Source of the DNA: a virus
Length of the DNA: 62,895 nt
IMG/VR virus record: IMGVR_UViG_3300020430_002311
Coordinates: 1-62,895 of that record
Direction: 5' to 3' (one strand)
The notes beneath the pieces were generated by a model. It was not told the DNA's origin, searched no databases, and saw only the letters and a program-made list of their open reading frames with translations. The position numbers and the translations under genes are program-made. Of this stretch, positions 4,939-47,986 are shown in pieces (the stretch's first letter is position 1; each line of letters begins with the position of its first letter).

Positions 4939-4978
4939 GTAGCGACATAAAGGGTCAATTAGAGGAAGGGGGTAGGCT

Positions 4979-5194: not shown

Positions 5195-6146
5195 GTCTAT
5201 AATTACCAAGGCGTACCGGTTCGTAAACAGTCATGGGGTTCTGAGTAGCTTCCTATCTTCGGCGTTGTGGGCCTTGGGTGCTTTTTTCTTTGCGCCTTCC
5301 GGAAAGGTTTTCGAAGAGAAGATCCGGAATAGCTTTGAGTGGCAGTTCGGATTAGCCGCTTGTGCTATTTCTTCCTTTATAGTCATTGGGTTCAGCGTCT
5401 ACTACATTGCTGCCGCAATGGACAAGAAGTCCATGCGCTTGGATCTGCAAGCAGCTCAGCGCCAGCTCGGCAAACACAATGAGCTTGGGCTGGTATACAT
5501 TTGGGCCAGCCACAACGCCGAGCACATCGATATAAATTATCAAGAAATGAAGGACGCGATTGAAGAGTCTGCCGACCGAAAGCTGGAGCTGCTATTTACA
5601 ACGGGCTACGAAGCCATGAGTATGGATGCAGAGCATGAGACTATCCAGTTTAAGAACCGGTTTTCAGAGAAACCGGATGGCCAACCAAGAAAGGCGGTCC
5701 TGCACGAGCTTATTCAGAATCTAAAAGGTCCGGTTCGAGTTCTCCTGCTCAACCCGTTGTCGCAAACGGCTTTCGATCGAGGAAGGGAAATTATCAACGA
5801 TGGTGATCTGTATCGGCAACTCATCTATCGAACGATAGCGTTCCTGGAGCTGGCAAAGGAGAGGAATGAAAACCTCCATCTTGATTTCGGTTTCTACAGT
5901 CAAAAACCAGTCTGGAATGTAGTCAGGAATAACATAATCACTTTCGTGCAGCCGGTTTCCCCAAATTATGCCGCTCGTTTGAACGCTTGGCTATGTTTTG
6001 CAAACAACAATTTCGGCATTACAGAAGGCTTTGCCACCCTCTTCGAGAAGAAATGGGATGAGAGGCAGTTGGAGGATGTCAGCCACCCTGATTTTCGAAC
6101 CAATGTCGACAAGATCAAACATGAAATCGAAGCGAAGATGAAGTAG
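5118..6146 (+). CDS. Two-helix membrane protein with a cytoplasmic domain, candidate defence or exclusion effector
   Basis: About 342 residues from the ATG at 5118, the only plausible start in this frame (AGGAGGAG lies 13 bases upstream). Two membrane helices follow (FLSSALWALGAFFF and FGLAACAISSFIVIGFSVYYIAA), then a linker helix and a domain of about 230 residues. The domain has an ELLFTTGYEAMSM segment, VRVLLLNPLSQTAFDRGREI and WLCFANNNFGITEGFATLFEKKW. The VRVLLLNP pattern recalls phospholipase-D-like or nucleotide-sensor-type domains in bacterial membrane effectors, but no HKD motif is visible. Being a plus-strand insertion between terminase and head genes, it looks like a moron for superinfection exclusion or defence. 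Function is inference. The first 25 residues look like shadow coding. Confidence 0.6.
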   Translation: MKTRNSSARQFENTKPPKQSSWYGVESIITKAYRFVNSHGVLSSFLSSALWALGAFFFAPSGKVFEEKIRNSFEWQFGLAACAISSFIVIGFSVYYIAAAMDKKSMRLDLQAAQRQLGKHNELGLVYIWASHNAEHIDINYQEMKDAIEESADRKLELLFTTGYEAMSMDAEHETIQFKNRFSEKPDGQPRKAVLHELIQNLKGPVRVLLLNPLSQTAFDRGREIINDGDLYRQLIYRTIAFLELAKERNENLHLDFGFYSQKPVWNVVRNNIITFVQPVSPNYAARLNAWLCFANNNFGITEGFATLFEKKWDERQLEDVSHPDFRTNVDKIKHEIEAKMK

Positions 6147-6155
6147 TCTGAAATG

Positions 6156-7868
6156 CTAATCCCGCCTTAGTCTCGGATCATTCGGCCCATCGTAGCCCAG
6201 TTTCCGTAACAGGCTATCATACTGCCTGCTCTGAATCGTATTCTTTCGTCTTTCCTGCACCTGCCTTGCCGTGTTCTGGTTCGGCTGCTCTTTGGGCTTT
6301 GATGCCCGTATTCCCGGCATCTCCCGAATGAGCCGGACTCCCATTTCCAGGGCATCCGGCCCGTCCTTGTGCCGGTAGGGGAATTCGTTTAGCTGCTGAA
6401 AGAGCGTTTCAGAATCGTCCCGAAGCAATAGAAGGCCGGAGGCTACCAACGGCTGCAGTGCGCCCATGATCCTGGCTTCTTTGTCGGAGGTGTTGGACAG
6501 CTCTACAATCGGAATGGTTATCTTGTTGGCACTGGTCTTATTGAACTCCGAAACCAATCGCCGGAAGTTCAGGAGGAAGTATTCCTGGTTGGCATTGCTT
6601 TCGATACCGCAGATATTCCAGGGAAGCGTCTGGAGTGCCAGCATTAGATCCCGTTCGATAGCATCCGGTCGCCGCCTCTGGATGTCGGAGTAAGCCTCGT
6701 AGAATTTCCCATCCGGACCGAGACCCACGCCTATTATGGCGCTGTAGTCTGATTTCTCGGACTTGCCGAGGGATAGGTCAACGGCCAGCGCAAGGGTCCA
6801 GTCGCTCCAGCTCGGTGCCGGTGGGAAACGGTACCTCTGGATCAGGCCTTTGAATCGCTGATCTACTTCGGCCAGGGGTTCATTCTGTCGTTCCTGGGCG
6901 AATCCGATCGGATCCTGCGCCCGTTCTTCCTGGAGTGCCTTCAATGGCCAGGTTTGCGGCCAGGTAGAGAACTCGTTTCCCTCTTCGTCCACCTCGATGG
7001 CCTTGAACTTCTTCCGGTCCCAGTGCCCGTACTTCTGGTTATCCGTGAATATCTGCTCACCGACGCAATTCGGGGCGATGGTGGTATAGGCCACGATTAC
7101 ATCCAGGCCCCAGGCTCCACCCAGACGTAGGGCTGCGCGGTCGAGCCACCGCATCTTGCGGACCATGGTCGATTCGCTGGCCACGTCCTTCTCTTCATCC
7201 GGATCATCGATAAGCAATGCATCCGGCCTGGACTCTTTGCGCCGCTTACCACGGATACTGTTCAGGAATCCTTTCGCCAGGATCCGGGCTCCGCCCTGGA
7301 ATACGATGTCCCCGTCTTTCCAGGAAACGGTCTGGCCCTTCTGATCCTTCTTCGGTCGCAGCTCCGGGTAATGCTCCAGGAGCACTGCATTGTCCTCGCA
7401 TTCGTCGATGATCGCCTGGAGAAATCCTTTTGCAGATTCGAGGCTGCTGGAGATTATGATGGGGAAATTCCACGTCCGCGTGAGAATGAGCCAGAGCGTG
7501 CCGCAAAGCGTCAGTACCGTGGATTTACCGAATCCACGGGAGAGGGCTCGGGTCATCTTCACCGGATCCCTTTGCCGTCCGCGTAGGGCCTGGATGTCTT
7601 CGATCAGTGCTTTCTGCTGGGGGCCGAATGGGCTTCCAAAGTAGTGCCCGAAGTAGTGCCGGAGAAAGAAATGGAACTGCCCGCGCTTGCCTGTTGCCCG
7701 GCGCCTGCAGACGGACTTCTCCCGGTTCGTAGACTCGGTAATCTGGCCAGCATACTCCCGTTCCACTCTCCGGAAAGCCAGCTCAAGAACCTGCGGAGGA
7801 AAGCGATTCAGTCCGGAGGAGCCCAGCTCCGAAAGGATCCTCTGTCTAATTGACTGATTCGATGCCAT
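6156..7868 (-). CDS. terL: Terminase large subunit
   Basis: A 570-residue packaging motor. The ATPase part carries a Walker A-like SRGFGKST at residues 110-117 and a Walker B region DALLIDDPDEEKD. An FIISSSLESAKGFLQ-type stretch precedes the Walker B segment. The nuclease part begins near ALAVDLSLGKSEKSDYSAI, where the first acidic residue of the RNase H-like site would sit, and continues with FYEAYSDIQRRRPD and CGIESNANQEYFL. It translocates DNA into the prohead through the portal and cuts the concatemer. The ATG at 7868 overlaps the end of the small subunit gene by 23 bp. Length and domain order are normal for the family. Confidence 0.93.
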   Translation of the reverse strand: MASNQSIRQRILSELGSSGLNRFPPQVLELAFRRVEREYAGQITESTNREKSVCRRRATGKRGQFHFFLRHYFGHYFGSPFGPQQKALIEDIQALRGRQRDPVKMTRALSRGFGKSTVLTLCGTLWLILTRTWNFPIIISSSLESAKGFLQAIIDECEDNAVLLEHYPELRPKKDQKGQTVSWKDGDIVFQGGARILAKGFLNSIRGKRRKESRPDALLIDDPDEEKDVASESTMVRKMRWLDRAALRLGGAWGLDVIVAYTTIAPNCVGEQIFTDNQKYGHWDRKKFKAIEVDEEGNEFSTWPQTWPLKALQEERAQDPIGFAQERQNEPLAEVDQRFKGLIQRYRFPPAPSWSDWTLALAVDLSLGKSEKSDYSAIIGVGLGPDGKFYEAYSDIQRRRPDAIERDLMLALQTLPWNICGIESNANQEYFLLNFRRLVSEFNKTSANKITIPIVELSNTSDKEARIMGALQPLVASGLLLLRDDSETLFQQLNEFPYRHKDGPDALEMGVRLIREMPGIRASKPKEQPNQNTARQVQERRKNTIQSRQYDSLLRKLGYDGPNDPRLRRD

Positions 7869-9854: not shown

Positions 9855-10718
9855 TTATCGTAATTCCCGAACTTCTTCGCGGTAATCCTGCACCTGTTGT
9901 AGGATCGAGTTCGCAGCTTCATACATTCCGGCTTCCACCTCCGCAAGGTAGGATTGCGAGATCCCGAGAGCGTGGGCAAGGCCGGACTGGGTAAGCCCGA
10001 GCTGCTTGCGGATGGTTCGGATCTCCAGGCCGGTTGCGCTGTAGCGTGAGTCTCGTTCCCAGTACCGTGAGCGCGCTTTCTTCAGGCTGTCAGAGAGGAC
10101 TGCCTGCATCTTATCCGGACCTGAATTGATCTGCTGGCTGTGCAGGGATACCTGGCAGATGTAGAGTCCGTCTCCGGCATCGATCAGGTTCACCTTCGCC
10201 TTGCGATACTTTGAACGCCACTCCTGGGCGACCATTTCCTGAGTGACCTTTTCGCTCGTTTCGCCACGGATGTATGAGAGGTCTTTAAGGACAGTGTTTT
10301 CGGAGATCCCGATTTCCGGTGCAATCTCTCTCACTCTCTTTCGCGTGATTCGGGCCTCCAGGTCCCAGAACTCCGGCGCGATTCTCTCATAAATGCGGTT
10401 GCGGATCCGGCGAGTAACGGACTGCCGCCCGGTATTGGATCGAATGAGCTTTCCTATGCTGCCTTTCAGGGGGATATCCCGGATCTTCCCCGGGATCGCG
10501 GTCCATCCGAGCAGTTTGCAGGCCTTGACCCTTTTGTGTCCGGAGATTATATATCCTTCACGGTTTACGAGAATCGGCTCTTCTAAGCCATCCCGGGCAA
10601 TGGAAGCGGCCAGGTTCTTGATGAATTGTGAACTGGCCTTGAATATGTAATTGTCTGGATGTTCTTTGAGGTCGGATATATCCAGATCTATGACCTTTTC
10701 GGCATGGTGGCTTTTCAA
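9855..10718 (-). CDS. ParB/Srx-domain protein with HTH and XRE domains
   Basis: A 287-residue protein with three parts. Residues 5-85 form a ParB/sulfiredoxin-like domain (ISDLKEHPDNYI, then EEPILVNREGYIISGHKRVKA with the GHxR core). Residues 110-160 hold a helix-turn-helix (VREIAPEIGISENTVLKDLSYI). The C-terminus has an XRE-type helix-turn-helix (IRKQLGLTQSGLAHALGISQSYLAEVEAG). I place the start at TTG 10718, with GGAGG 8 bases upstream. The longer frame from 10787 would put the late promoter motif inside the gene. There is no ParA nearby, so it is more likely a regulator or a DNA-modification or nuclease-type ParB protein than a plasmid partition pair, although the absence of an integrase keeps partition possible. 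Confidence 0.8.
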   Translation of the reverse strand: MKSHHAEKVIDLDISDLKEHPDNYIFKASSQFIKNLAASIARDGLEEPILVNREGYIISGHKRVKACKLLGWTAIPGKIRDIPLKGSIGKLIRSNTGRQSVTRRIRNRIYERIAPEFWDLEARITRKRVREIAPEIGISENTVLKDLSYIRGETSEKVTQEMVAQEWRSKYRKAKVNLIDAGDGLYICQVSLHSQQINSGPDKMQAVLSDSLKKARSRYWERDSRYSATGLEIRTIRKQLGLTQSGLAHALGISQSYLAEVEAGMYEAANSILQQVQDYREEVRELR

Positions 10719-10762
10719 TGTGTTCTGCCTCCCATACCCGGTATTCTTCTGATTTTTTCGTT

Positions 10763-10770
10763 TATCGGGC
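10763..10770 (-). promoter_or_regulatory. Late CCGATA motif upstream of the ParB-like gene
   Basis: Reads GCCCGATA (context TTGCCCGATAA) on the minus strand. It lies 28 bases from an ATG at 10735 that opens a six-codon leader frame (MGGRTH). The stop of that frame overlaps the TTG start of the ParB-like gene at 10718. The ParB-like gene therefore has its own late-type control, separate from the early operon upstream. Confidence 0.5.
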
Positions 10771-10803
10771 AATGTCTCGACTGGCAATGTTCTTCACTCC
10801 TTC

Positions 10804-33459: not shown

Positions 33460-34326
33460 ATGGAATTTACCCATCCCTGTCATATTATCAAAGCCGAAGA
33501 GAATTCCGGACGGCTAAAAGTTCTGATTCGAGCCTCCACTGAAGGAGAAGACCGGCACGGCGAGCGTGTCCTAAAGAGCGCGTTTGCAGACCCGGATATG
33601 CAACGGTCTTTTTCCAGGGAAGGCTACTACGACTACAACCACATAACAGATATTCTGGACAAACAGATGAAAGGTGTCTCCGGCACCGAACTTGTGGAAC
33701 TGCAGAAGGCCAAAGCAAGGGCGATCATTGGATATCCGGATCCCGACAAGTCGTTGTTTGTCGGGGATGATGGCGTTTATTCCCAGGGGTATCTATTCGC
33801 AGATAATGAATACGTCCAGGAAATCCGCAAGGGTCTTGAATCCGGCTGGTCTGGCTGGGGGGCTTCGATCTCCGGTTTTGCGAGCCCCGCGGACCTGGAA
33901 GGCAACACTTTCAAGAAGATTGGTCTGAAGAAGATCGCAATCGCCCCGCTCCAGGAAGTCATCAATCCGGATACAAGTGTTCAACTGGCCAAGTCGAAGC
34001 TCGTTCAGGTGATAAAGGCCGGTGAGGACTACTACACCGAAGAGCAGACGGGCGCAACCGACACCTTGCCCGATACAGAAATCCGTGACCAGATAATTCA
34101 GGATCTACAGATGCAGGTCGGTCGGCTCACGCGATTGGTCCTTTCGCAACCTTCCATGCAGGAAGCTATCGCTCGTGAAGTGGTGGATGCGATCAAATGC
34201 GGCACCCTGCCCCTGCAACACGATCCCATAGTCAGCTTTTTGACCGATAGCTTTGGCTTTGATACGGATTTAGCCAAGCAAGTCGCCAACGGCGTACTGC
34301 TAACAGGTAACTTCGGAGCGGCATAG
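33460..34326 (+). CDS. Prohead protease, XkdF-like
   Basis: A 288-residue protease for head maturation. Residues 1-170 form the XkdF-type serine protease domain: LIRASTEGEDRHGERVLKSA, YDYNHITDIL with H61 as the probable catalytic His, and GWSGWGASISGF with the probable Ser near 136-138. The stretch KSKLVQVIKAGED at about residues 177-190 and CHIIKAEE at the start resemble repeats found in the scaffold and in the putative injected proteins, so they may be self-cleavage sites. The C-terminal 100 residues are helical, like a scaffold-binding tail. It heads the operon with scaffold and capsid genes. Confidence 0.8.
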   Translation: MEFTHPCHIIKAEENSGRLKVLIRASTEGEDRHGERVLKSAFADPDMQRSFSREGYYDYNHITDILDKQMKGVSGTELVELQKAKARAIIGYPDPDKSLFVGDDGVYSQGYLFADNEYVQEIRKGLESGWSGWGASISGFASPADLEGNTFKKIGLKKIAIAPLQEVINPDTSVQLAKSKLVQVIKAGEDYYTEEQTGATDTLPDTEIRDQIIQDLQMQVGRLTRLVLSQPSMQEAIAREVVDAIKCGTLPLQHDPIVSFLTDSFGFDTDLAKQVANGVLLTGNFGAA

Positions 34327-34362: not shown

Positions 34363-35049
34363 ATGAAATGGGCAGAAGAATTAATTGGAAAGATTCAATC
34401 TTTAAGCGTTCGCAAAGCGGACGATCCGACCTCCGGCGATAAAGGCGGCGGATCCATCGAGGATCTGGCAATGGAGGCCGCGAACAAAATGGAGAACGGC
34501 GAAATTGAACCGGATGCAGATTCCGCTAAGGACTTCCTGGTATCTAACGGTGTCGACGAATCTGAGGCCGGAGATTTTGCCAGAGATATCATAGATGCCT
34601 ATTTCTCCGAGGATGATCCAAAATCCGGAGAAGGCGACGGGTCCGGGGACAAAGGAGACGTCAACAAGTCAAAGGATCCGACCCAGGATGAAGCCAATTC
34701 GGACCAGATCCCCATTCAGAAGTCCATGGAGCGAATCGAAGAGGCCCTGAGTGTTCTCGGTTATGGCCTTACTCATATCCTGGACGAGCTGCAGGCAACC
34801 CGCAAGGAGAATGCTGTCCTGAAAAGCCAGGTGGATGAATACCTCGGCAAGCCAGTTCGCAAGAGTACGGTTGAGCAAGTGGCCCCCGGTGCTGGCCAGG
34901 AGAGCGGCAGATCCACCTCCGAAACAAAGACCCTGATTCTGAAAGGAGTCCAGGCCGGTGAGCTTACCACTGAAGACATGACTGCCTTCGAAGTGGGTCG
35001 AGTGCTCACCGACAAAGCAAAGCATTACATCAATAAGGCAGGAGCCTGA
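34363..35049 (+). CDS. Capsid scaffolding protein
   Basis: A 228-residue acidic protein between the protease and major capsid genes, where scaffolds lie. Low-complexity DDP/GDG-rich stretches in the first half are followed by a helical coiled-coil (SMERIEEALSVLGYGLTHIL, QATRKENAVLKSQVDEYL). The sequence LSVRKADD near residue 19 and YINKAGA at the C-terminus share the hxhxKA pattern of the candidate protease sites. It would guide capsid assembly and be removed during maturation. AGAGGAGA ribosome site upstream. Confidence 0.75.
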   Translation: MKWAEELIGKIQSLSVRKADDPTSGDKGGGSIEDLAMEAANKMENGEIEPDADSAKDFLVSNGVDESEAGDFARDIIDAYFSEDDPKSGEGDGSGDKGDVNKSKDPTQDEANSDQIPIQKSMERIEEALSVLGYGLTHILDELQATRKENAVLKSQVDEYLGKPVRKSTVEQVAPGAGQESGRSTSETKTLILKGVQAGELTTEDMTAFEVGRVLTDKAKHYINKAGA

Positions 35050-35081: not shown

Positions 35082-36503
35082 ATGAGAGAACTTAACGAAC
35101 TACTGGAGATTAAGAAGGCCTTTGAGGCCAATCCGGGGATTACTGATGTGGCCGAGCTCTTTGACGGCCCGGCGCTCAGTATGCAATACATCGATGGAAC
35201 CATGTCTTCCATCGTTGCAAGCGATGTTGACTTCGCTTTCCTGAATAAGCTGCCGAAACGATCGGTGGACCAGACCATTGCCGAATACAACAAAATGAAG
35301 AGCCACGGAGACTCTCCGTATCGCACTTCTTTCGTTGGGCAATCAGAGGATCCCCACTTCGCTGACGCATACCTGAAAAGAAAGTTCGATGAAATGGCGT
35401 ACCTTTCTGAAGGGTTCACATATAACCGCGTAATTGCCCGAACCAGGAACACAAACGACCCGGAAATGGTATCGTCCACGTCCGCCATGCGCCGGATGCT
35501 CACTTCCCTGTCCCGGGGCCTCTGGAATGGTGACCGTGACGCTCTATCCGTTGAAATGGACGGAATCGTTAAGAAGGTCTCTTCACTGGGCTCGGACTTC
35601 GTTTACGATTGTCGTGGCCAGCTACCCGGTGCCGACGTAATCCAGCATTTTGCAGCTCAGATCCGAAGTAGATATTTCGGACTGGCCAACGAATTCCACA
35701 TGGCCGTCGGTTCCAAGAACCTGTTTGATCAGGCAGACCTCGGTGATAAGCAGTATATTTTCCTGGATGGCCAGAATGCCGGTGCAGGTCTGTATGCCAG
35801 CCGAGTTGTGGAGGGCCAGAAGGCTTCCTTCGCACTGAACAACAAGATTCAGTATGTACCGGATCTGTGGATCGATGAAAGCAATTTCGGCGTTCCAATG
35901 GACTATGACCGGTCCACCGACTCCGTGGTCGAAAAGGCCGTAGGTGAAGCTCCTCCGGATACCCCTGCTCTGGCGGTCGCTGCTCAGGCTCCGTCCGTAC
36001 CCGGCTCCAAATGGGAGGCTGGAGACGTTGGCACCGTAGCATACCGTGTGGCCGCTGTAGGCCCTAAAGGTGCTTCTCAGGCCACAACCTCACAATCCGC
36101 CACAGTAGCCGCAAATGGAGCCGTGGAACTGACCATCACTCCGGCTGCAGGAGGCAACTTCGCAGAGGCATTCCTGATCTTCCGTGAGACAGCTCCTGGC
36201 AACGGAGATTTCCGCAAGATTGCCCGTGTAAAGCGTGCAACCAGCGGTGACACTACCTTTGTGGACGTAAATGAGACAATCCCCGGAACCAGCGTCGGTG
36301 TCCTGGGCGACTTCAATAGCCGGTCCACTTCCGACGAAACCAGAACCATGGTTCTGAGTGAGCTTATGAGCCCGCTCAAAACCACATTCCCTCCGGGAGT
36401 TGGCGGCCTGCGACTGAACGTTGGCATGGTGGAGTATTTCACAACCATCCAACTCTTCGCCGAAGAGAAGTTCGTCGTATTCAAGAACATGCCAGTTATC
36501 TAA
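35082..36503 (+). CDS. Major capsid protein with an inserted Ig/FN3-like domain
   Basis: A 473-residue capsid subunit. The first 290 residues contain LSMQYIDGTMSSIVASDVDF, FVGQSEDPHFADAYLKRKFD, RMLTSLSRGLWNGDRDALSV and FGLANEFHMAVGSKNLF, and the last 50 residues contain MVLSELMSPLKTTFPPGVGG, as in HK97-fold myophage capsids. Between about residues 300 and 410 lies an Ig/FN3-like insertion (GDVGTVAYRVAAVGPKGASQ, GAVELTITPAAGGNFAEAFL, TSGDTTFVDVNE), a domain that in other capsids protrudes from the surface. A strong terminator follows. The start has a GAGAGGATAG ribosome site. Position and scaffold/protease neighbours make the call firm. Confidence 0.85.
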   Translation: MRELNELLEIKKAFEANPGITDVAELFDGPALSMQYIDGTMSSIVASDVDFAFLNKLPKRSVDQTIAEYNKMKSHGDSPYRTSFVGQSEDPHFADAYLKRKFDEMAYLSEGFTYNRVIARTRNTNDPEMVSSTSAMRRMLTSLSRGLWNGDRDALSVEMDGIVKKVSSLGSDFVYDCRGQLPGADVIQHFAAQIRSRYFGLANEFHMAVGSKNLFDQADLGDKQYIFLDGQNAGAGLYASRVVEGQKASFALNNKIQYVPDLWIDESNFGVPMDYDRSTDSVVEKAVGEAPPDTPALAVAAQAPSVPGSKWEAGDVGTVAYRVAAVGPKGASQATTSQSATVAANGAVELTITPAAGGNFAEAFLIFRETAPGNGDFRKIARVKRATSGDTTFVDVNETIPGTSVGVLGDFNSRSTSDETRTMVLSELMSPLKTTFPPGVGGLRLNVGMVEYFTTIQLFAEEKFVVFKNMPVI

Positions 36504-37353: not shown

Positions 37354-38055
37354 ATGAAAACCCTCCAAAAGACTCTGAATTTCATTTTCCAGTGTCTCTG
37401 GTTTGCCATCAAGGGATTGATTCCCAGAAAGATCGGCGCCGGAGATAAGATCATTCATTATGCCCCCAGACTCGTCGTTCAGTTATTACTGTCCTATCTC
37501 GTAGGCGGTCCACGTCTCTTCCTGTTCGGAGATTCGAACAGTGAGGTAATGTCCCGCTTGAAAGTGATGATCGGTTTTGACGTGGTTGCCATTTCTGGCG
37601 GTATCGGTGGATCGAGGTTGGACCAATGGGTCGATTTCTTTGAAACATGGATCGGGAAACTCGTCCTATGGCTTGTTGGCGATGCTGAAACGGTCTGCAA
37701 TCTTGGCGGCAACAATGCTCTCCATCGAAAGATGAAAACGGTTCCGGAATCTGCCCGTGAACTTCATGCGATTCGCCCGGATGCCTGGATCATCTTGATA
37801 CCGCCTATTCACTTCGATTTCTTTTCCTTTCTGGTTCAACCGAAACAACTCAGAAAGGATATCGAAAAAATCAACAAGGAACTACGCAAAGAGTACAAAC
37901 CTCGAGTTATCGATCCAGAGCCCCTGGTGGACAAAGACGAGAACGGCGAACCGGATCCAGGTTCACTGAAGGATGCGGTACATTATGCAGACCGGCTTGT
38001 CTTTGAGATTCAGACTGTAATCGAGCTTACTGCCCTGGCCGAAGTGGACCGATAA
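37354..38055 (+). CDS. SGNH (GDSL-like) hydrolase
   Basis: A 233-residue enzyme with the SGNH blocks in order: block I FLFGDSNSE with nucleophile Ser61, block II VVAISGGIGGSRLDQW (oxyanion Gly), block III VCNLGGNNAL (GxN), and block V LKDAVHYAD with Asp207 and His210. The fold hydrolyses esters or removes acetyl groups. An amphipathic N-terminal segment (LNFIFQCLWFAIKGLI) could bind membrane or capsid. Encoded between head completion and the giant DarB-like gene, it may be carried in the virion and modify surface sugars or cell-wall acetyl groups; the substrate is unknown. Confidence 0.8.
   Translation: MKTLQKTLNFIFQCLWFAIKGLIPRKIGAGDKIIHYAPRLVVQLLLSYLVGGPRLFLFGDSNSEVMSRLKVMIGFDVVAISGGIGGSRLDQWVDFFETWIGKLVLWLVGDAETVCNLGGNNALHRKMKTVPESARELHAIRPDAWIILIPPIHFDFFSFLVQPKQLRKDIEKINKELRKEYKPRVIDPEPLVDKDENGEPDPGSLKDAVHYADRLVFEIQTVIELTALAEVDR
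38047..38054 (+). promoter_or_regulatory. Late CCGATA motif for the giant DarB-like gene
   Basis: Reads GACCGATA and overlaps the stop codon (CGA TAA) of the hydrolase gene. It ends 26 bases before the ATG at 38080. The leader ends TATCCGGCC before ATG, with no Shine-Dalgarno sequence. Confidence 0.6.
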
Positions 38056-38079: not shown

Positions 38080-41000
38080 ATGCGTCGGAAATTCCTGCAA
38101 GTGTTGAAAGAACGGATGGGGGCTGCCATGGCAGGCCCCCGCTCCAGAGCGCACCTCATTCGCAAGGTCATCACAAACCGGCGGGGCCACAAGCAAACAG
38201 TATACGTCAGGCCAGACAAGGCCGGAAGCCCACCTTCTGCCCCTCAAAAACCATCACAGTCTTCATCCTCTGTCGCGGAGGCTCGAAAGGAGTTTCAAAG
38301 AGCCGATGCCGAATTCAGTGCAGCGCTGGAAGAGGCCTATGGCAAGCAAGCGGGAGACAAGCGGTATTCTCCTGGTCCCCATCCACCTGCAGTAGAGGCT
38401 GCAAAGAAGAAACGGATGGAGGCCCAGAAGAAGTGGCATGCGGCACAAGACCAGACTCGGGCTTCAGGAAAGGATCCTCTATCCGGGGCACCTGTTGAAT
38501 CCGAGCAGTCAGAAGCCTCAAACAAAGAGAAGCCGGAGCCGAGTGATGGGGAGGACAAGACAGCATCCGATTCCCCGGCAACCGCCCTCTCCTTCGTTGG
38601 TCATGATCAGATCCGGGAGCTGTCTCAGTACACAGACAAGCGCAACTACGATAGAAAGACTATCGATGGCATCAAGGCCAGCATCTTGCGGAATGGTTAC
38701 AATCCGGCCTTCCCTCTCCAGGTCGATACAGACAACGGAACCTACAATATCGTTTCGGGGCACCACCGATTCACAGCGGTAAAGGAACTGGTCAGCGAAG
38801 GGAAACTACCGGACAACTTTCAGATTCCCGTCATCGTAAAGCAGTATGGAAGCAAAGGCGACCGACTTATGGCGCAAATGTCGGAGAATGTTCGCCGCAC
38901 TGTCAACCCATTGGACGAGGCCCGGGCCATCGGAGAGTTAACCGAGATGGGCCACAGTGTTTCAGAAATCGCAGAAAAGACCGGAATGAATCCGGGAACT
39001 GTCCGGCGACGCAAAGCATTGACCGGGCTGCACAGTGACCTTCAAAAGCTGTTCGAGAAAAAGGACCGAAGTCTGCCCGTAGGTATCGCGGAAGCGATCG
39101 GAACTCATGGCCTGAATCCAGACGGGTCTAAAAACGCAACCATCCAGAACAAGGCCCACCGATTCTACAATGCCAACCGACATCGTGGATTCGGAGCTGC
39201 TGAAGTGATTAGCTACATGCAGGAGCTCAAGTCGCAGAACTCCGATCAAATGTGGTCCGTAGATGAAACCCGTACGGAAGCCGAGAAGCAAGCCGTCCAG
39301 AGCCTCGGTTCAGAAGAAAAGGCAAAGCGGAACACAGCGCAAATAGACAAATTCCTGGGTAGCGTACAGAATTCGTTTCAGCGCCTTCTCGGGGACTCTA
39401 TTAGCTCTCTAAACGAATCTACTCTCAAAGAACTCTCTAACAGCCTCCTGGCCACGGAAGGCGAGTCCGGGTTTCGCTCAAAAATGGATCAGCTATCGAC
39501 ACTGATGAACGACCTGGAGACAGTCAAGCGTACTCTCGAGCAGAATTTCAATAAGATCAAAGAGGAATCATCGAACCATAGTCTCGCATTCGCCCGATCA
39601 ATGGCAGTGATTGAAGCCAGCCAGGACGCCATTCATGTTCTAAAGTCGGCCCATAGAGAGACACGGGTAATCGAAAAAAGCAGATTTCTGGAAGTCCTCA
39701 AGGCCAAAGGCAAATCGGCGAGGAATCGGGCTCACCTCGTGCGCAAGGTAATAACCAACAAGAAGGGGCACAAACAGACAGTTTACGTGAACCCCAATGA
39801 AACCAACCAGGCTCAGGCGGAACAAATCGGGGAGTTCACTCTGAAACGCAGAGGGAAATTCATCGATGTCCTCGGGAATCTGTTCAAAGAATCCGGCCTG
39901 TACATGGCCTTGAATTCTCTAACCGGCAAGAAGGGGAAGCCTATCGAAGGAGAAAACGATCAGGGTAGCATTGGTGCTACTTACCCTTACTCAGTCGCCA
40001 ACTATAAAAAGATCCGGGAGCAGTTGCTGGGAGTTTCCCGGGGGCCTGCCGACAACCGAGAGCAGGATTTGAGCCCTGCGGATGTCAGGAATATACCGGA
40101 TGAGATAGAGTCGGAAGTCAAGGGAGATAAGGCACGATCCCTCTGGAAGCGAGCGTCCGAGCGATTCCCGAACCTGGATGCCGGAACTTTTGTGGATCAT
40201 CTGGTTGAGTATTTGCTCCACCGTGACAAATACGAAGACCTTTTTTCGCAACAGAGCCTCTTCCAGGAGCCATCGGAAACTCCGGCGAACTCTGCAAAGG
40301 ACTCGGGCTCGAAAGGAACGGTTAGCACTCCGAACCCAGCACCGTTCCGGAAAGACTTGCTTCGCTTCATCCATGAGCAATGGTCCGAATCGATCCAGAG
40401 CGATCCTCGTTCAATAGAGAAGGCTGAAGAAAGGTATAATGCAGCAGAACGAGACCTTGAAGAGTCCGCCCGGGAAGCCTACGGGAATCGTTCCAGCGAC
40501 ATGCTGGAATACGCAAACTCCAGGGTGCATCCTCCAGAAGTTCAGGAAGACCTGGATCAACGCAACGAAGCTCGGGTTTCTCTCCTGGAAACAAGGAAGG
40601 AGTCTCAGATTCGAGAATCCCGCATAAGGGCAAGCGTCGAAACAGGTAAAGCACGGGTCGGCGTTAAGACTCAGCATGCAATCAATGAAGAGGTCCGACA
40701 GATCCTGAAATCTGTGCCATCGGAAAAGATGACCGAGGAGCAGAAGGAACTCCTTCGTCAGTACGAAGGCTGGGGCGGGCAGACCCGAAATGATAAAACG
40801 GATTACTCCGGCAAGGGACTTCTTTATGAGTTCTATACTCCTGAGAAGGTCGTAAACAAGTCCTGGGAGCTATTGGAGAGATATATCCCCAAAGGGAGCA
40901 AGATTCTCGAACCCGCTGCCGGGACCGGACGATTCGCGGAGGGACGATCAGACTACAGTTTCGACATGCTGGAGGTAGACGGCACATCAAGCCAGATTGC

Positions 41001-44000
41001 CGGTATTCTGCACCCGGATGCAAATGTCCGGAAGGGTCAATTCGAAGAGCTGTTCCTGGATAATCGGAACCGATCCAAGAAGCAATACGATGGTCCTCTG
41101 TACGATGCCGTGGTAACGAACCCGCCCTACGGCGAAATGGGAGGAAAATACAAGGCATCCGAAGGTCGAGGCTGGCAGCGCTATGAGGAATACTTCCTCC
41201 ATCGCTCCCTCGACACCGTGAAGGAAGGCGGCATAGTTGCAATGGTCGTTCCTTCCAATTTTCTCCGAAAGGGGAAAACCAAAGCAAAGGAGAAGATATT
41301 CAACAAAGCAGAACTCCTGGAAGCCCACCGATTGCCGAATGGCGCTTTTGCTCATACGGACATCGGCACGGATCTGATCATCCTTAGAAAGAATACTACG
41401 GAGCACAAAGACAATGCGATTGCCTTCGAGGATGAATACTTCAAGCGGAACCCGAATCATCTTCACGGAGAGGAGCACGAGACGACAGATCGCTGGGGCA
41501 AGCCAGACCTGCGGACAAAGGGCAATATTGATACCTTTCTCAATCATAGACCGGCGGCCCCCAAGGAAATGTCAAAAGCCCACAAGGATGCAATCTCCAG
41601 GGGATTGATCGGGAACCAGAACGCAAAGGGGAAGCACAAGGTAGCCAGTTCAAATCGGAAGACGGTTAAGAAGAAAGCCGTCCGAAATGCGACGAGGAAA
41701 ACGAAGAATACGGCGAGAGAAAAGCAGAGTCCTCCCCCGAAGCTCCTGAATCAGGCGGAGTTCAATAGGAAATACGGGCTGAACTTCAGCGAATCGGATG
41801 TAGAATTGCTGAAAAGTACCAATGCTCTCGGATACATTGATCCCCAGACGCCATTCGATCCGAAGTCGATGTCATTCCACAATGGCGGTGCAATGCCCGA
41901 CTACCTGTATGCCACGGGCGATATTTATGAAAAGCTGAAGCAACTGGAATCGGACAGGGAAGAGATCATCGAGAAAGGTGGCCTGCAGCTATACCAGAAG
42001 CAGCGCCAGATGCTGGAAGATGCCATTCCGGAGCAAACCCCGCTGAAGGACGTCGTTCTGGATCCAATCGACCCTTTCTTCAAGACAGTCACCCTGGAAG
42101 ACGGAAGTTCCCTTCTCGACCGGTTCAAGGAATGGGTCGGTGATCTGGACTACGAGACCTTTATGGACTACGCGGCCTCAGCCAGCGACGTTCGGGCTTA
42201 CTGTGATGCCATACCTGTCCGGGGCAACAACAAGAGCCTGAATGAGAGAATCCGGCGAGAACGCCGGGAATTGGCAATGAAGCTGGCAGACAGGTTCGTC
42301 AAGGAATCCCTGGGTGAGGCCGAGCAGAGTCAGATCCAGCAGTCCTGGAATGAACGCTTCAACGCCTACGTTCAGGTGGATCCGGCGAAGGTGCCGATTC
42401 CGATTGAGGGATTGAACGAAAAGTTCAAGGGTAAAGACTATGAATTGAGGGATGTCCAGCATCGATTCATTGCAAATTTCCTTTCAAAAGGCATCGGTTG
42501 CGCAGCCCACGAGGTGGGGCTGGGAAAAACCATGACCGGCATTATTGCCACAGTCTCCAATATGCAAATGGGACGGTCGAAGAGGCCTCTGTTCGTGGTC
42601 CCAACCTCGGTATTACCGAATTGGGAGGCCTCCGTTAAATCGCTTTATCCAAATCTCACGGTGAATACAATCGGCACCCCCGAACTGAATCAAATGACCG
42701 AAGGCGGCAAGAAACTCGAGATCGAAGAAGGGTCGGTGACTGTAATGTCTTACGATGCGTTCCAGAGGATGGGCTTCAGCGAAGAGCGATTCAATGAACT
42801 CACAAAAGACCTCCAGGATGCTCACAAGCCCTATGCAGAAGAACCGGCCACCAAGCGAGGGAAGGCAAAGAAAGAGGAGGAATATGAAGCCCTGGTATCG
42901 AGAGCGAGAACGGGTACGTATAATGAAATACTATTCGACGAAGCGGGCTTTGACTCTCTGACCGTGGACGAAGCGCACAACTTCAACAATATCTTTGCTG
43001 ACGTAAAACAGGAGAAGGATCAAGACACCGGGAAGGTCAAGACCCAGGCAAATGAATTCTCCGGTATCATTGGAGGGGCGACGAGCGACCGTGGGCTAAA
43101 AATGTGGCTGGCAGCCCAGCACGTGCTCAAGTCCAACGACAACCGCAATGTGATGATGCTCACAGCCACTCCCTTTACGAACAATCCGCTTCAGGTCTAC
43201 TCCCTACTCTCCACGATGGCCAGGGAACGCCTCCAGAAGATGGGGATCTACAACGTAAAGGATTTCGTGGCGGCCTTTGTAGAGACTCAGACCGAAAAGG
43301 TTCTGGAGCCCAACGGAAAAATCAAAGAGAAACAGACGGTCCGCCGTTTCAAGAATGCCCATGCCTTTGCCTCGCTAATCAATGAATTCTTCGACCGAAA
43401 AACCGGAGAGGATGCGCATATCAAACGGCCGGACCTGGTAGAGAAGGAGATCGTTCTTCCTTCTAACAAGGAAATGGATCAGATCCGCCAGAGCCTGGAG
43501 AACTATTACGATATGGCTTTCCACCCCGATCCTGATGAGCGAGATCCCTCCGCTGCACTAAGGTCCATGACCATGCAGCAAAACCTGAATATCAGTCCGG
43601 CCCTCGTAAACGACTATCAATTCAACGATAACCGACAGGATTTCGTCGAACGCAGTCCCAAAATGAAATTTGTGGCCAAATCCGCTGCAGAATACTACAA
43701 ACGGATGAAGGAAGCCCAGGGGAATGCTCCGGGCCAGATCATCTTTCTACCCCGAGGGGTTGAGTATTTCAATGAAGTGAAGGCTTACATGGTTTCCCAG
43801 GGAATCCCGGAGGATGCCATCGAGATCATGACTCCCAAGGAGAAAGGGAAAAAGGCCAGGAGCAAGGAAGCAAAGGCGAAGGGGCAAAGTCGATTCGAAG
43901 AAATCAAGTTCGACTTCAATGATCCGAATGGCAAAACGAAAATCATAATTGGCTCCGATACGATCCAGGAAGGAGTATCCCTCCAGAAAAATACGGGGGT

Positions 44001-44856
44001 CATGTATAACTGCAGCCTGGCATGGAATCCGACATCGAACGAACAAAAAAAGGGCCGTGGATGGCGCCAGGGGAACACCCAGGAGCGTTGCCACATGTTT
44101 TACCCGGTCATGGAGAACTCCGTCGACACAAAACTGTACCAGAAGCATGCCGAAAAGGTTTCCCGAATCAACGATATCTTTAAGGCAACTGGATCCCCTT
44201 TCATCGAAACCACGGACATCAATCCTGATGAGCTGAAATACGAGATCGTGACCGACCCGGAGAAAAAGGCCAGGCTGGTTGCATCGGAAGATGAGACGCA
44301 GCGTCTGGCCGCCATCAAGGATAAGACCACCGACCGGAACATTCTCCTATCAACCCTGAATCGAGCAGAAAATCTGGACCGACGCATTAGGGATGCGGAA
44401 GAGTCACTGAAGCGGTCACAGCGCTGGGCCGAAATGTACGGCAAGAACTCAACACTTGGTCGATTCCATGCGGAGGATGTAAACCGCATCAAATCAAGAC
44501 TCAGTCGATTGAAGCGCGACAAAGAAGAGCATGAGACAATGATGCAGCAGAAGGGCATGACCGTGGAGAAGCTCCGTTCTCAGGCGGAGGCTCTGGAAAA
44601 CGAGATCGCTCAAATGAAAGCAGATTCAACCAAAAAGAAGGAAGAGCTTGAATCAGAACTGGTAGAGCGCTACCGACGAGAAAAGGAAGAATATGAGAAG
44701 AGCCGTCCCAACAAGTCGATCGACCAGATGGTGGATGAGCATGTCTCAAAGCTGGTTGACTCTTCCCTCGGCAAGTCGGTATATAAGAGTCGAATCTACG
44801 AAATAATACGGGGAGGGAGAATGCATGAACGCAGACGTAAAGCAGCAGCTCTTTGA
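38080..44856 (+). CDS. Giant polyvalent antirestriction protein (ParB + N6 methyltransferase + SNF2-like helicase, DarB-like)
   Basis: A 2258-residue protein, close to the length of phage P1 DarB. Order: hairpin module RAHLIRKVITN...GHKQTVYV (residues 23-45); ParB/Srx domain (about 170-330, IVSGHHRF near 225, HTH HSVSEIAEKTGMNPGTVRRR near 300); a second module copy (550-572) after KSRFLEVLKAKG; N6-adenine methyltransferase with LEPAAGTGRF near 945 and NPPY at 1014-1017; SNF2-type helicase with Walker A HEVGLGKT near 1477-1484, DEAH at 1630-1633, LTATPF, and QEGVSLQ and GRGWRQG near 1990; C-terminal coiled coil. By analogy with DarB it would be packaged in the head and injected to protect incoming DNA from host restriction. 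The ParB part is an added domain. The window shows packaging only by inference. Confidence 0.85.
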   Translation: MRRKFLQVLKERMGAAMAGPRSRAHLIRKVITNRRGHKQTVYVRPDKAGSPPSAPQKPSQSSSSVAEARKEFQRADAEFSAALEEAYGKQAGDKRYSPGPHPPAVEAAKKKRMEAQKKWHAAQDQTRASGKDPLSGAPVESEQSEASNKEKPEPSDGEDKTASDSPATALSFVGHDQIRELSQYTDKRNYDRKTIDGIKASILRNGYNPAFPLQVDTDNGTYNIVSGHHRFTAVKELVSEGKLPDNFQIPVIVKQYGSKGDRLMAQMSENVRRTVNPLDEARAIGELTEMGHSVSEIAEKTGMNPGTVRRRKALTGLHSDLQKLFEKKDRSLPVGIAEAIGTHGLNPDGSKNATIQNKAHRFYNANRHRGFGAAEVISYMQELKSQNSDQMWSVDETRTEAEKQAVQSLGSEEKAKRNTAQIDKFLGSVQNSFQRLLGDSISSLNESTLKELSNSLLATEGESGFRSKMDQLSTLMNDLETVKRTLEQNFNKIKEESSNHSLAFARSMAVIEASQDAIHVLKSAHRETRVIEKSRFLEVLKAKGKSARNRAHLVRKVITNKKGHKQTVYVNPNETNQAQAEQIGEFTLKRRGKFIDVLGNLFKESGLYMALNSLTGKKGKPIEGENDQGSIGATYPYSVANYKKIREQLLGVSRGPADNREQDLSPADVRNIPDEIESEVKGDKARSLWKRASERFPNLDAGTFVDHLVEYLLHRDKYEDLFSQQSLFQEPSETPANSAKDSGSKGTVSTPNPAPFRKDLLRFIHEQWSESIQSDPRSIEKAEERYNAAERDLEESAREAYGNRSSDMLEYANSRVHPPEVQEDLDQRNEARVSLLETRKESQIRESRIRASVETGKARVGVKTQHAINEEVRQILKSVPSEKMTEEQKELLRQYEGWGGQTRNDKTDYSGKGLLYEFYTPEKVVNKSWELLERYIPKGSKILEPAAGTGRFAEGRSDYSFDMLEVDGTSSQIAGILHPDANVRKGQFEELFLDNRNRSKKQYDGPLYDAVVTNPPYGEMGGKYKASEGRGWQRYEEYFLHRSLDTVKEGGIVAMVVPSNFLRKGKTKAKEKIFNKAELLEAHRLPNGAFAHTDIGTDLIILRKNTTEHKDNAIAFEDEYFKRNPNHLHGEEHETTDRWGKPDLRTKGNIDTFLNHRPAAPKEMSKAHKDAISRGLIGNQNAKGKHKVASSNRKTVKKKAVRNATRKTKNTAREKQSPPPKLLNQAEFNRKYGLNFSESDVELLKSTNALGYIDPQTPFDPKSMSFHNGGAMPDYLYATGDIYEKLKQLESDREEIIEKGGLQLYQKQRQMLEDAIPEQTPLKDVVLDPIDPFFKTVTLEDGSSLLDRFKEWVGDLDYETFMDYAASASDVRAYCDAIPVRGNNKSLNERIRRERRELAMKLADRFVKESLGEAEQSQIQQSWNERFNAYVQVDPAKVPIPIEGLNEKFKGKDYELRDVQHRFIANFLSKGIGCAAHEVGLGKTMTGIIATVSNMQMGRSKRPLFVVPTSVLPNWEASVKSLYPNLTVNTIGTPELNQMTEGGKKLEIEEGSVTVMSYDAFQRMGFSEERFNELTKDLQDAHKPYAEEPATKRGKAKKEEEYEALVSRARTGTYNEILFDEAGFDSLTVDEAHNFNNIFADVKQEKDQDTGKVKTQANEFSGIIGGATSDRGLKMWLAAQHVLKSNDNRNVMMLTATPFTNNPLQVYSLLSTMARERLQKMGIYNVKDFVAAFVETQTEKVLEPNGKIKEKQTVRRFKNAHAFASLINEFFDRKTGEDAHIKRPDLVEKEIVLPSNKEMDQIRQSLENYYDMAFHPDPDERDPSAALRSMTMQQNLNISPALVNDYQFNDNRQDFVERSPKMKFVAKSAAEYYKRMKEAQGNAPGQIIFLPRGVEYFNEVKAYMVSQGIPEDAIEIMTPKEKGKKARSKEAKAKGQSRFEEIKFDFNDPNGKTKIIIGSDTIQEGVSLQKNTGVMYNCSLAWNPTSNEQKKGRGWRQGNTQERCHMFYPVMENSVDTKLYQKHAEKVSRINDIFKATGSPFIETTDINPDELKYEIVTDPEKKARLVASEDETQRLAAIKDKTTDRNILLSTLNRAENLDRRIRDAEESLKRSQRWAEMYGKNSTLGRFHAEDVNRIKSRLSRLKRDKEEHETMMQQKGMTVEKLRSQAEALENEIAQMKADSTKKKEELESELVERYRREKEEYEKSRPNKSIDQMVDEHVSKLVDSSLGKSVYKSRIYEIIRGGRMHERRRKAAAL

Positions 44857-45031
44857 AGCCGTGGAGGCAGACTTCCCGCACCTGGCAAGTCTGGGGCCGG
44901 ACAGGGTCTACGATTCCCTATCCTCAATTTGTATGCAGGAGGGGAAGCCAGTAACGGTTGAACAAATGCTCCAATACGCGGTGATTCTGGACAACGACCT
45001 GGAGATGGACGATCTACAGACCGGCGACTGA
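44825..45031 (+). CDS. 68-residue acidic protein, unknown
   Basis: A small acidic helical protein (KQQLFEAVEADFPHLASLGP, VEQMLQYAVILDNDLEMDDL) starting inside the last 32 bases of the DarB-like gene, with GGGAGGGAG about 6 bases before the ATG. It fills the space before the next late motif. It might be a chaperone or antitoxin-like partner of the large protein or of the kinase-like protein downstream. No family recognised. Confidence 0.6.
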   Translation: MNADVKQQLFEAVEADFPHLASLGPDRVYDSLSSICMQEGKPVTVEQMLQYAVILDNDLEMDDLQTGD

Positions 45032-45041
45032 ATCGACAGAT

Positions 45042-45049
45042 GCCCGATA
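45042..45049 (+). promoter_or_regulatory. Late CCGATA motif for the kinase-like packaged protein
   Basis: Reads GCCCGATA, ending 26 bases before the ATG at 45075. CCGTTTTCCGG just after it could form a small hairpin. No Shine-Dalgarno sequence before the start. Confidence 0.6.
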
Positions 45050-45074
45050 GCCGTTTTCCGGCTATAACGGGTCC

Positions 45075-46493
45075 ATGAATGGCATTCATATTCTCAAGGC
45101 GGCCAACAGAGCGCATCTGGTCCGCAAAGTCATTACGAATAAGAAAGGCCGCCGCCAGACCGTTTACGTAAACCCGGAACAGGAAAAGTCGAAAGAAAAA
45201 GGTCGAGGCCAGTCTGGTAAGGCATCCGAAAAAAAGGCCGAGGACAAGGAAGCCGGATCCTCCCGCCCCGACCAGTCCGCCCATAACAAAGAATCTCAAC
45301 CGAGGAACAACGCGCCCGAGAAGAGCGGACAGAAAAAAGAGGGCACCGGGAAGAAACCGAAAGAACGTAAGTACAAAGACCCAGGGGTTAATCAGATTTG
45401 GGCTCCTGCCGATGTTGAGGCAGCCAAGGCCCAAGCATTCTACAACATTGTAACCGACCCAGACATCGGTGATCCGATACCTCGCCCGGGTCGCTGGAAT
45501 GAGGGGATTCCCGAGGGGATGCCCTCCGAAACCTGGGAAGAGCACTTCACCGGCCATCCAGATGAAGGCGGAAAGCCAAAGGAGGGCCGGGAGTTTCTCC
45601 ACAACTTGATCAAACAGAGATTCCTCGAAGGGAAACCATCGGTGCCGTCCGGCGAAAAACCCGTTGCCATATTGATGATGGGCGGCCCGGCATCCGGGAA
45701 GTCGACCATGGTTAAGTCCGCTGGCCTGGAGAGTATGGAGGATTTCGTCGTCGCTGATGCTGATATAGTGAAGAACATGATTCCGGAATATCGAGTCGGG
45801 GTCAACAATCGCCTGAAACAGGCCGCATATATGGCACATGAGGAGTCCAGCTATCTGGTGAAGCAGATCAGAGAAGAAGCCATCAATACCCGGAAGAACC
45901 TGGTTATCGATGGGACAGGTTCAAAGACAGCATCCTACGAAAAGAACATCCAGAAGCTCCGGGACCAGGGATACGAAATCAAGCTTATGATGGCTGACAC
46001 CCCGATGGATGTTGCTCTGAATCGCGCCAAACAGCGAGCGAGAAAAACCGGCCGCTACGTCCCAGACGGTGTTCTGAAAGGTGCTTATGCCGGTATCCCG
46101 AGCGGGTTCCAGAAGATCGCAGAGATGGTTGATTCTGCAGCCATCTATGATACAAACGTGAAGCTGGGAGAGCCTTCACGGCTTGTCTATACAAAGACGA
46201 ATGCCGCTGAAACCATCCATGACTCCGAGCATTATTCGAAGTTCCAGAGTAGGATCGGAAAGTCCTGGCTGTTTCAGATCATCAAGTCCAGACTCTCCCG
46301 TGAACAACGAATTGCTGTAACGAAAGGAGGAGAAGATATGCAGGAGAAGAAGCAAAAGCGAACCGATGACGAGCTACTACAGGCAATGGCCCGCGACGAA
46401 TGGGACTTCACCGAAGAAGAAATGAAACGAATTGAGGCCATGGAAGACGTGGCGGACGAAGGGGAAGGAGTGGAAATGGTAGTGGATGACTGA
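45075..46493 (+). CDS. Zeta-toxin-like P-loop kinase with the packaging module
   Basis: A 472-residue protein. It begins IHILKA followed at once by the module RAHLVRKVITN...RRQTVYV (residues 12-34). A charged linker leads to a kinase domain with Walker A MGGPASGKST at residues 203-211, VVADADIVKNMIPEYR (substrate-contacting), YMAHEESSYLVKQIREEA, NLVIDGTGSK and RARKTGRYVPDGVL. This is the zeta-toxin/polynucleotide-kinase-like pattern; zeta toxins phosphorylate UDP-N-acetylglucosamine. The acidic C-terminus (EGEGVEMVVDD) is unusual. With the shared module it is probably carried in the head and injected. Substrate and toxicity are inferred. It could also be a simple ATP-binding protein. Confidence 0.75.
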   Translation: MNGIHILKAANRAHLVRKVITNKKGRRQTVYVNPEQEKSKEKGRGQSGKASEKKAEDKEAGSSRPDQSAHNKESQPRNNAPEKSGQKKEGTGKKPKERKYKDPGVNQIWAPADVEAAKAQAFYNIVTDPDIGDPIPRPGRWNEGIPEGMPSETWEEHFTGHPDEGGKPKEGREFLHNLIKQRFLEGKPSVPSGEKPVAILMMGGPASGKSTMVKSAGLESMEDFVVADADIVKNMIPEYRVGVNNRLKQAAYMAHEESSYLVKQIREEAINTRKNLVIDGTGSKTASYEKNIQKLRDQGYEIKLMMADTPMDVALNRAKQRARKTGRYVPDGVLKGAYAGIPSGFQKIAEMVDSAAIYDTNVKLGEPSRLVYTKTNAAETIHDSEHYSKFQSRIGKSWLFQIIKSRLSREQRIAVTKGGEDMQEKKQKRTDDELLQAMARDEWDFTEEEMKRIEAMEDVADEGEGVEMVVDD

Positions 46494-46543
46494 ACCCACT
46501 GCAATGGATTTATCCGCTTGAATGATGGAATAGGTTATCCGGC

Positions 46544-47986
46544 ATGTTTGGTCTTGAAAGCCTTATTGACATACTGAAAGCTCGCGGCGCAGCTCTTGGT
46601 GAGATCCACCATTGGGCCAATGGCGATTATATGAAAACTCCGCAGGGCTGGAAGGAAGTCAAGAAAGACGTCCGGAAGCATCTGGACAAGCTCACAAAAC
46701 GTATGGCTCCCGCAGACGAGAAGGCCCGCGAACACCGCTTCGCCATGGAGGACCTTAAGTCCAGGATTGACGGGATCAAGAGCAAACTCAGCGAGCACCC
46801 CGATTCAGATTACTACAAAAATGAGCTCAAAGAGGCGGAGAAGCGCCTGATATTCCATAGCGTAAAGGCCGAACAAGTTGGAGGACGTGCCCGACGCCGT
46901 GCCGAGGATTATTTGGATCAGGTCCGCCAGTATCTAAAGGACCATCACGAAACCCAAATAAACGCCAAATATGCTGACGCACTGAAGAAGCTCGATGAGC
47001 GGATGGCTGCACTTGAAGAAGGTGGGGACCGTTACAATCAAATAATGGAGAACCATCGAAAGCTGGTAGGCTCTGAATACGAGGATGAGGACGATGCTGA
47101 GTCAGCAGCAGAAGATGAGATAGAGATCGAAAAAGAGATTATCGAGGATAAGCAAACGGACCTGCACGACCTGATCTGGGAGAAAGTTGGGAACCGTCAT
47201 GATCAGATCGATGAACGTTTAGACAAATTGCTGGAAGACAGTGAAGAGGATACCCGCGAAGCATTTGAAACTCGTCTCGATGACTTCGAGGACATCAAGA
47301 CCCGCTACCCAACCAGCATAGACCGGGACCCAGTTACTCCGATAAGCAAGGTAAGGGAGAGAATCAGGAAGAACCTCGGTTTTCGCAAGCGGTTGGCCGA
47401 CCGATTGAATCTGAAATCCAACCTGGGCCGGATGCTCGCAGTATTCAAAGCCGGAAACCGGCAGGGTCTTGTTAAGAAGGTCATCACAAATCAGGCTGGG
47501 CACCGGCAGACGGTCTGGATTCGGCCGGACGAAAGCCCCGGCCCTCGCCCCGTAAAAAAGGATAGTGGCCCATCCTCCAAAAAACCCGGTGCAGGCTCAG
47601 TAAAGCGCACAATGGCGCCCCAGCGCGGCGGAATGCCGTCCAAGAAGCCCATGGCCGCAAAACCCGCCGAAGATCATGCTGTTGTCCAGCAGCGGCATGA
47701 GGATTTTGAAAAGCGCGCCCAGGAGCAGCGAAAACGAAAAGGACCTAATGCAAGCATTGATGCCGCCGAAGCTGGCGATATAGTGCAAATCACCAACCCG
47801 AAATCGAGAGTCCGCAACCAAATAGGAAAAGTGGTTCAGAAACTGGAGGACGGATTGAAGGTCATGATGGCCAACGGGATTTTCCAGGATTTCACTTTCG
47901 ATGAACTGTCCTTCGCGAAGTCCCGGCCGCTCGGGTTTCGACCGGATGGAGTTCAAATCCTGAAAGCCCGTATCGAGTTGAACTGA
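46544..47986 (+). CDS. Coiled-coil packaged protein with the shared module
   Basis: A 480-residue protein. It starts FGLESLIDILKARG, the hxhhKA motif. Residues 25-60 read GEIHHWANGDYMKTPQGWKE, another phage-typical N-terminal piece. Residues 65-280 are a long charged coiled coil. At about 293-328 KSNLGRMLAVFKAGN is followed by the module QGLVKKVITN...GHRQTVWI. After a Pro/Lys linker, residues 410-460 form a KOW/SH3-like strand set (GDIVQITNPKSRVRNQIGKV), and the end repeats QILKARIELN. No enzyme motif. It is likely an internal head protein. A weak motif (ATCCGCTTG) stands at the late-motif position. Confidence 0.7.
   Translation: MFGLESLIDILKARGAALGEIHHWANGDYMKTPQGWKEVKKDVRKHLDKLTKRMAPADEKAREHRFAMEDLKSRIDGIKSKLSEHPDSDYYKNELKEAEKRLIFHSVKAEQVGGRARRRAEDYLDQVRQYLKDHHETQINAKYADALKKLDERMAALEEGGDRYNQIMENHRKLVGSEYEDEDDAESAAEDEIEIEKEIIEDKQTDLHDLIWEKVGNRHDQIDERLDKLLEDSEEDTREAFETRLDDFEDIKTRYPTSIDRDPVTPISKVRERIRKNLGFRKRLADRLNLKSNLGRMLAVFKAGNRQGLVKKVITNQAGHRQTVWIRPDESPGPRPVKKDSGPSSKKPGAGSVKRTMAPQRGGMPSKKPMAAKPAEDHAVVQQRHEDFEKRAQEQRKRKGPNASIDAAEAGDIVQITNPKSRVRNQIGKVVQKLEDGLKVMMANGIFQDFTFDELSFAKSRPLGFRPDGVQILKARIELN

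Follow-up and report, generated by a model that had tools for sequence, protein, structure and literature searches.

We give a probability of about 0.55 to the reading that the polyvalent proteins of the phage studied here are cut in the procapsid, each fragment keeping a basic hairpin tag. The DNA analyzed is a viral stretch of 62,895 nucleotides (the window), which agrees in its coordinates with contig C1 of a metagenome-assembled genome (MAG) labeled Spirochaetaceae NP120. Leptospira phage LE1 and its relatives have related head genes, the prohead protease and capsid genes among them. According to the proposed mechanism, the large polyvalent proteins would enter the procapsid as precursors, and the prohead protease (33460 to 34326) would cut them after the Lys of a hydrophobic-hydrophobic-Lys-[Ala/Ser/Gly] motif (hhK[ASG]), as predicted for its own cutting. 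Cutting would trim the protein ends and separate domains, such that each mature fragment would start with a hairpin; the fragments would be the ParB part and the methylase-helicase part of a DarB-like protein, a kinase, and the coiled-coil and C-terminal parts of the protein encoded at 46544 to 47986. The hairpin would most likely keep the fragment on the packaged DNA or drive its exit alongside the DNA into the next host. We infer the cleavage, the packaging, and what the hairpin binds; cleavage, packaging, and injection are proposed by analogy with the protein class and its precedents (PMC9024508, PMC10052503, and PMC12373910).

A preliminary description of this DNA had reported four copies of a short module in three consecutive genes, and all four are present at those positions, far above chance. 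A query of the window with one copy returned exactly four matches (E = 1e-13 to 5e-7), as follows:

38146 to 38214, plus strand: hairpin module copy 1, at residues 23 to 45 of the DarB-like protein, ahead of the ParB domain
39727 to 39795, plus strand: hairpin module copy 2, at residues 550 to 572 of the DarB-like protein, between the ParB and methylase-helicase parts
45108 to 45176, plus strand: hairpin module copy 3, at residues 12 to 34 of the zeta kinase
47459 to 47527, plus strand: hairpin module copy 4, residues 306 to 328 of the protein encoded at 46544 to 47986

The module consensus is roughly [DN]xS[KHR]Lx[KR]KVIT[ND]KxGxxQTV[WY]V (hereafter, the KVITN type), and the mean charge of the hairpin is +5. 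AlphaFold applied to 30 copies produced two strands (residues 16 to 21 and 27 to 32) with pLDDT values for the block of up to 96, and the core of the hairpin in the kinase copy reaches about 96; as modeled, the module is a confident basic beta-hairpin. The module itself had no convincing Pfam, PHROG, or NCBIfam match in the carriers scanned and no PDB homologue by sequence, a text search of the literature with its letters returned only unrelated text, and the window had no Rfam match.

The three carriers appear to be otherwise unrelated, as had been proposed, with no Pfam domain common to them outside the module; they are listed here together with an LPD3 protein that has no module:

38080 to 44856, plus strand: DarB-like polyvalent protein with ParB, N6-methylase, and SNF2 helicase domains (Pfam and PHROG matches)
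45075 to 46493, plus strand: zeta-toxin-like kinase with an N-terminal module (Pfam Zeta_toxin, E = 8.5e-33)
46544 to 47986, plus strand: protein that, as read from its sequence, has three site motifs and a pair of dissimilar hairpin-like segments
1871 to 3613, minus strand: polyvalent protein in which an LPD3 part is joined to a conserved head-region protein, with VQK|AG (K418; the bar marks the predicted cut) at the fusion border

The first of these is polyvalent in that several unrelated conflict domains (ParB, methylase, and SNF2) lie in one polypeptide; the kinase and the 46544 protein have only one recognized domain or none. The kinase has a Zeta_toxin match over the cutoff and a Walker A motif (GGPASGKST), and the 46544 protein has no informative Pfam match. 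The module carriers had been taken for a whole set of injected effectors. That set is incomplete, as the LPD3 protein, which has a site at its fusion border and no module, is a fourth candidate; its head-region partner is a separate 183-aa protein in LE1-like relatives. With VQK|AG at its border, the fusion is possibly a cargo delivered by fusion. A few neighboring observations concern other genes. An open reading frame (ORF) that follows the head genes and precedes the DarB-like gene (37354 to 38055, plus strand) bears a weak likeness to GDSL/SGNH hydrolases (Pfam E = 0.005), and a similar ORF occupies the same place in locus L116. The gene at 9855 to 10787 (minus strand) encodes a ParB-like sequence followed by what, by eye, is a helix-turn-helix-like C-terminal part; it perhaps serves plasmid-type partition or regulation, which would fit an LE1-like plasmid prophage. 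The MAG copy of the DarB-like gene (L012, 14622 to 15747) consists of two ORFs with an in-frame TAG, which suggests an assembly error and not a true break because there are ambiguous bases elsewhere in the locus.

The module is not private to the phage of the window. Profile searches in IMG/VR and Spirochaetota genomes recovered it from about a dozen further phage lineages; the number of carriers is a lower bound since the copies are too diverse for one protein-alignment scan. With a profile built from 30 unique module copies, true copies in the DNA retrieved had E values of at most 2.4e-10 and the next match had an E value of 5e-3, a separation of seven orders of magnitude. Large carriers with Pfam matches have mostly polyvalent-protein domains, among them InPase, ART-PolyVal, PBECR2/3, RadC, LPD1, ddrB-ParB, and a DarB-like methylase-helicase, and several module loci adjoin portal, protease, scaffold, or capsid genes. 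The module thus behaves as a tag of phage proteins, its carriers being mostly polyvalent-domain proteins and several of them lying near head genes. Carriers outside phages, the finding that would have told against the preliminary description, do not predominate, although most carriers come from the viral collection, which biases the census. A sample of Spirochaetota genomes corrects this in part, with the module in 6 of 393; as far as could be discerned, the contig was in every case prophage-like or a polyvalent-protein contig. On the contig L069/L107, six copies are spread over four genes, three of them in the gene at L069:6894. Small proteins of locus L073, encoded close to a terminase gene, have the module at or near their start and with no site. 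At least five small genes there (4978 to 6177, 6791 to 7675, and 12939 onward) have the module at or near the start and unrelated remainders, and they possibly form a cluster of small injected proteins. Searches of phage databases with module peptides gave nothing beyond a weak tblastn match in Pseudomonas jumbo phages (E = 0.5; a small protein of unknown function), which was rejected at a profile E value of 0.05; at the sensitivity of the peptide search, named isolate phages seem to be without the module.

Since the carriers in the window are neighboring genes for modular proteins, the copies could be functionless relics of recombination among polyvalent genes within one phage. We consider this very improbable. 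The same pattern is seen in about a dozen lineages, and in a sibling contig that is near-identical to the window (L005/L068) the kinase site and module (approximately residues 1 to 40) are identical to those of the window except at residue 2, whereas the kinase linker after the module is visibly far less conserved. This retention next to a diverged linker indicates that the module is under selection.

The preliminary description did not include a second element, the hhK[ASG] motif, which lies a few residues before most copies. By count, a site was found within 22 residues upstream of 22 of the 28 module copies that have at least 8 upstream residues, while windows of the same proteins averaged 6.8, with a maximum of 15 in 2000 draws. 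The sites in the three carriers are the following:

38101 to 38112, plus strand: site-like VLKE, imperfect (Glu after Lys), near the DarB-like N terminus and upstream of module copy 1
39694 to 39705, plus strand: predicted protease site VLK|A (K541|A542), upstream of module copy 2 by a few residues
45090 to 45101, plus strand: predicted protease site ILK|A (K8|A9), directly before module copy 3
46278 to 46289, plus strand: predicted protease site IIK|S (K404|S405), between the kinase and its acidic tail
46571 to 46582, plus strand: predicted protease site ILK|A (K12|A13), at the N terminus of the 46544 protein, before its second hairpin-like segment EIHHWANGDYMKTPQGWKEV
47441 to 47452, plus strand: predicted protease site VFK|A (K302|A303), directly before module copy 4
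47957 to 47968, plus strand: predicted protease site ILK|A (K474|A475), near the C terminus of the 46544 protein (six residues away)

The last of these is ILK|S in the sibling, a change inside the allowed set, and the DarB-like ortholog in L116 has ILKD in place of VLKE; imperfect sites found elsewhere include TKG, MEKA, and LTEA. Measured against shuffled sequence, the motif is enriched in the 25 residues at each end of 19 dereplicated polyvalent proteins (14 versus 1.2 expected), of proteases (12 versus 0.7 expected), and of scaffolds (8 versus 0.75 expected), counts to be read with the fact that the motif was defined while some of the proteins later counted were in view and that relatives are not independent. 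The corresponding segments of 82 tail and other structural proteins had none (4.0 expected). Control motifs (hhK followed by other residues, and hhE/D/N/Q/R followed by [ASG]) were not enriched in polyvalent proteins, and in polyvalent proteins and proteases together only Lys followed by a small residue was clearly enriched. Many polyvalent proteins have the motif at one end or at both, and some have it near both ends, as in the L038-type methylases (TFLK|A and RFLK|S) and LE1 gp15 (NFIK|G and NFVK|G). In the MuF/LPD3 class, the strict motif was not found, and the LPD3 border site has Gln before the Lys.

The frequent joint occurrence of site and hairpin, the charge of the hairpin, and the low complexity of many linkers would also fit a single small folding or DNA-binding unit (a helix plus the hairpin) that serves as a domain linker and involves no proteolysis. 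This seems improbable, although less so than recombination leftovers, as the motif also stands without any hairpin (at protein C termini, at the border of the protease domain, and close to scaffold N termini), and tail proteins almost never have it at their ends. From its distribution, hhK[ASG] looks like a prohead protease cut site.

The head genes in question are as follows:

33460 to 34326, plus strand: prohead protease (invariant His61 and Ser136; AlphaFold and Foldseek)
34363 to 35049, plus strand: scaffold-like protein beside the protease (invariant Lys18, then Ala or Ser)
35082 to 36503, plus strand: major capsid protein (phrog_752), with K12|A13 near the N terminus, a weaker site with Lys before the Lys

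The protease has an assemblin/gp21-like fold with the conserved His and Ser. Its AlphaFold model (mean pLDDT of 76) matched T4 gp21 (5jbl) in Foldseek with a probability of 1.00 and a TM-score of 0.62 by target length, along with many annotated prohead proteases in BFVD; it has no PDB sequence relatives. The site motif occurs at K11|A12, in a strand in the model, and at K186|A187, close to Lys178, which lies at the end of the catalytic domain and is invariant over 15 to 17 relatives; residues 169 to 181, which contain Lys178, have low AlphaFold confidence, as for a linker. N-terminal sites among the proteases are HIIK|A, QILK|A, and FLK|S. Because PF04586 (S78 protease) is found on few carrier records, proteases were identified through gene order and alignment. 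The divergent, module-bearing phages L107 and L108 have protease, scaffold, and putative capsid genes after the polyvalent genes, with near-N-terminal sites in the protease (LQK|A), the scaffold (LSK|A or LLK|A), and the putative capsid protein (LLK|A or LTK|A), although some capsid and scaffold genes in L107, L108, and L113 were named by order and resemblance, without a family match.

In relatives without the KVITN module, other hairpin-like segments occupy its place. In LE1, gp15 and gp26 share a different segment after the same site (ILNF[IL]K|G...YYKRE.KAKGGYRYWY), and the phage of locus L076 has the KVITN type plus the YYKRE type in the next gene (from 11243). In other LE1-type phages, it is W.DGK...KTE.GW that follows LK|A or a similar site in ParB-like proteins, and the N terminus of the 46544 protein is of this type and different from the KVITN module. 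Judging by their sequences, we infer that these segments are hairpins too. The YYKRE segment is the N-terminal module of both the DarB-like gp15 and the ParB protein gp26 of LE1 (L009, 6404 to 12319 and 21876 to 24455). A prophage-like locus (L113, 1016 to 11034) encodes a MuF-InPase protein and three neighbors, each with Lys-[Ala/Ser] near the start and a different hairpin-like segment.

The module had been proposed to be a capsid-targeting signal, and as put forward this fits poorly with a module that is usually downstream of a predicted site and repeated within single polypeptides. In T4, the leader of the internal proteins is N-terminal and removed. IpI to IpIII resemble the module carriers in that a short element is common to otherwise unrelated injected antirestriction proteins, and the T4 prohead protease gp21, whose fold is that of the protease in the window, cuts their targeting sequence. 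The module, however, follows the site, has another sequence, is internal in several proteins, and is repeated, so it does not have the properties of a T4-type targeting sequence (N-terminal, upstream of the site, and removed). A simple leader is disfavored because one copy of it should be enough, and the T4 leader is removed, whereas the module occurs about once per would-be fragment.

A modified version, in which the module targets the uncut precursor to the capsid and the Lys motif is either coincidental or serves only to trim off short leaders, is unlikely in our estimate, although it is the most plausible of the three alternatives. It gains from the module being close to the N terminus of the kinase, of the DarB-like protein, and of the small proteins of L073, from the sharing of the module by otherwise unrelated proteins, and from precedent: the N-terminal 30 residues of P1 DarB contain a packaging signal and are enough for targeting (PMC9024508), and T4 Ip1 to Ip3 have only a leader in common (PMC12373910). 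However, several copies are internal, downstream of a site, and repeated (three in L069:6894), and LE1-like relatives retain the site with other hairpin-like segments. If the polyvalent proteins are cut as we propose, the hairpin should act after cutting because it is on the retained side and occurs about once per fragment, and a role in DNA binding or ejection would fit its charge.

P1 is similar to the phage of the window in that DarB corresponds to the DarB-like methylase-helicase protein, and P1 DarA, which is cut by Pro, is cut during head maturation (PMC12810830). BLAST found no consensus among the P1 Dar N termini (PMC9024508), and the module profile had no significant match in the six P1 Dar proteins, the DarB N terminus included; the module is thus not universal. 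In P1, the cut in the capsid protein is at Glu|Ser, in contrast to the Lys|[Ala/Ser/Gly] predicted in the window. In SPN3US, the prohead protease cuts head and ejection proteins as well as its own C terminus (PMC10052503), but the SPN3US/phiKZ propeptide site is A-X-E|, and the parts of that report consulted describe no shared hairpin after the site. The InPase, ART-PolyVal, PBECR2/3, LPD1, ddrB-ParB, and methylase-helicase domains of module carriers are also among those of the polyvalent proteins described by Iyer et al. in 2017 (PMC5512222), in the consulted parts of which there is no mention of such a hairpin or of prohead-protease sites separating domains.

More generally, polyvalent proteins may be capsid-processed polyproteins in which interchangeable basic hairpins, the KVITN type being one of several, serve as a general retention or ejection code, a tentative extension that we hold with less confidence than the cutting itself. 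How proteins are chosen for loading into the head and injection has been worked out in only a few models, such as T4, P1, and N4. If the extension is true, site and hairpin would be a general code by which injected effectors are recognized and delivered across many phages, and the short, searchable signature of site plus hairpin would allow injected effectors to be found from sequence alone, with the site motif predicting their exact N termini. The hairpin tag may also offer a means of loading foreign proteins, and cutting into pieces could explain how very large multidomain proteins pass through a narrow tail.
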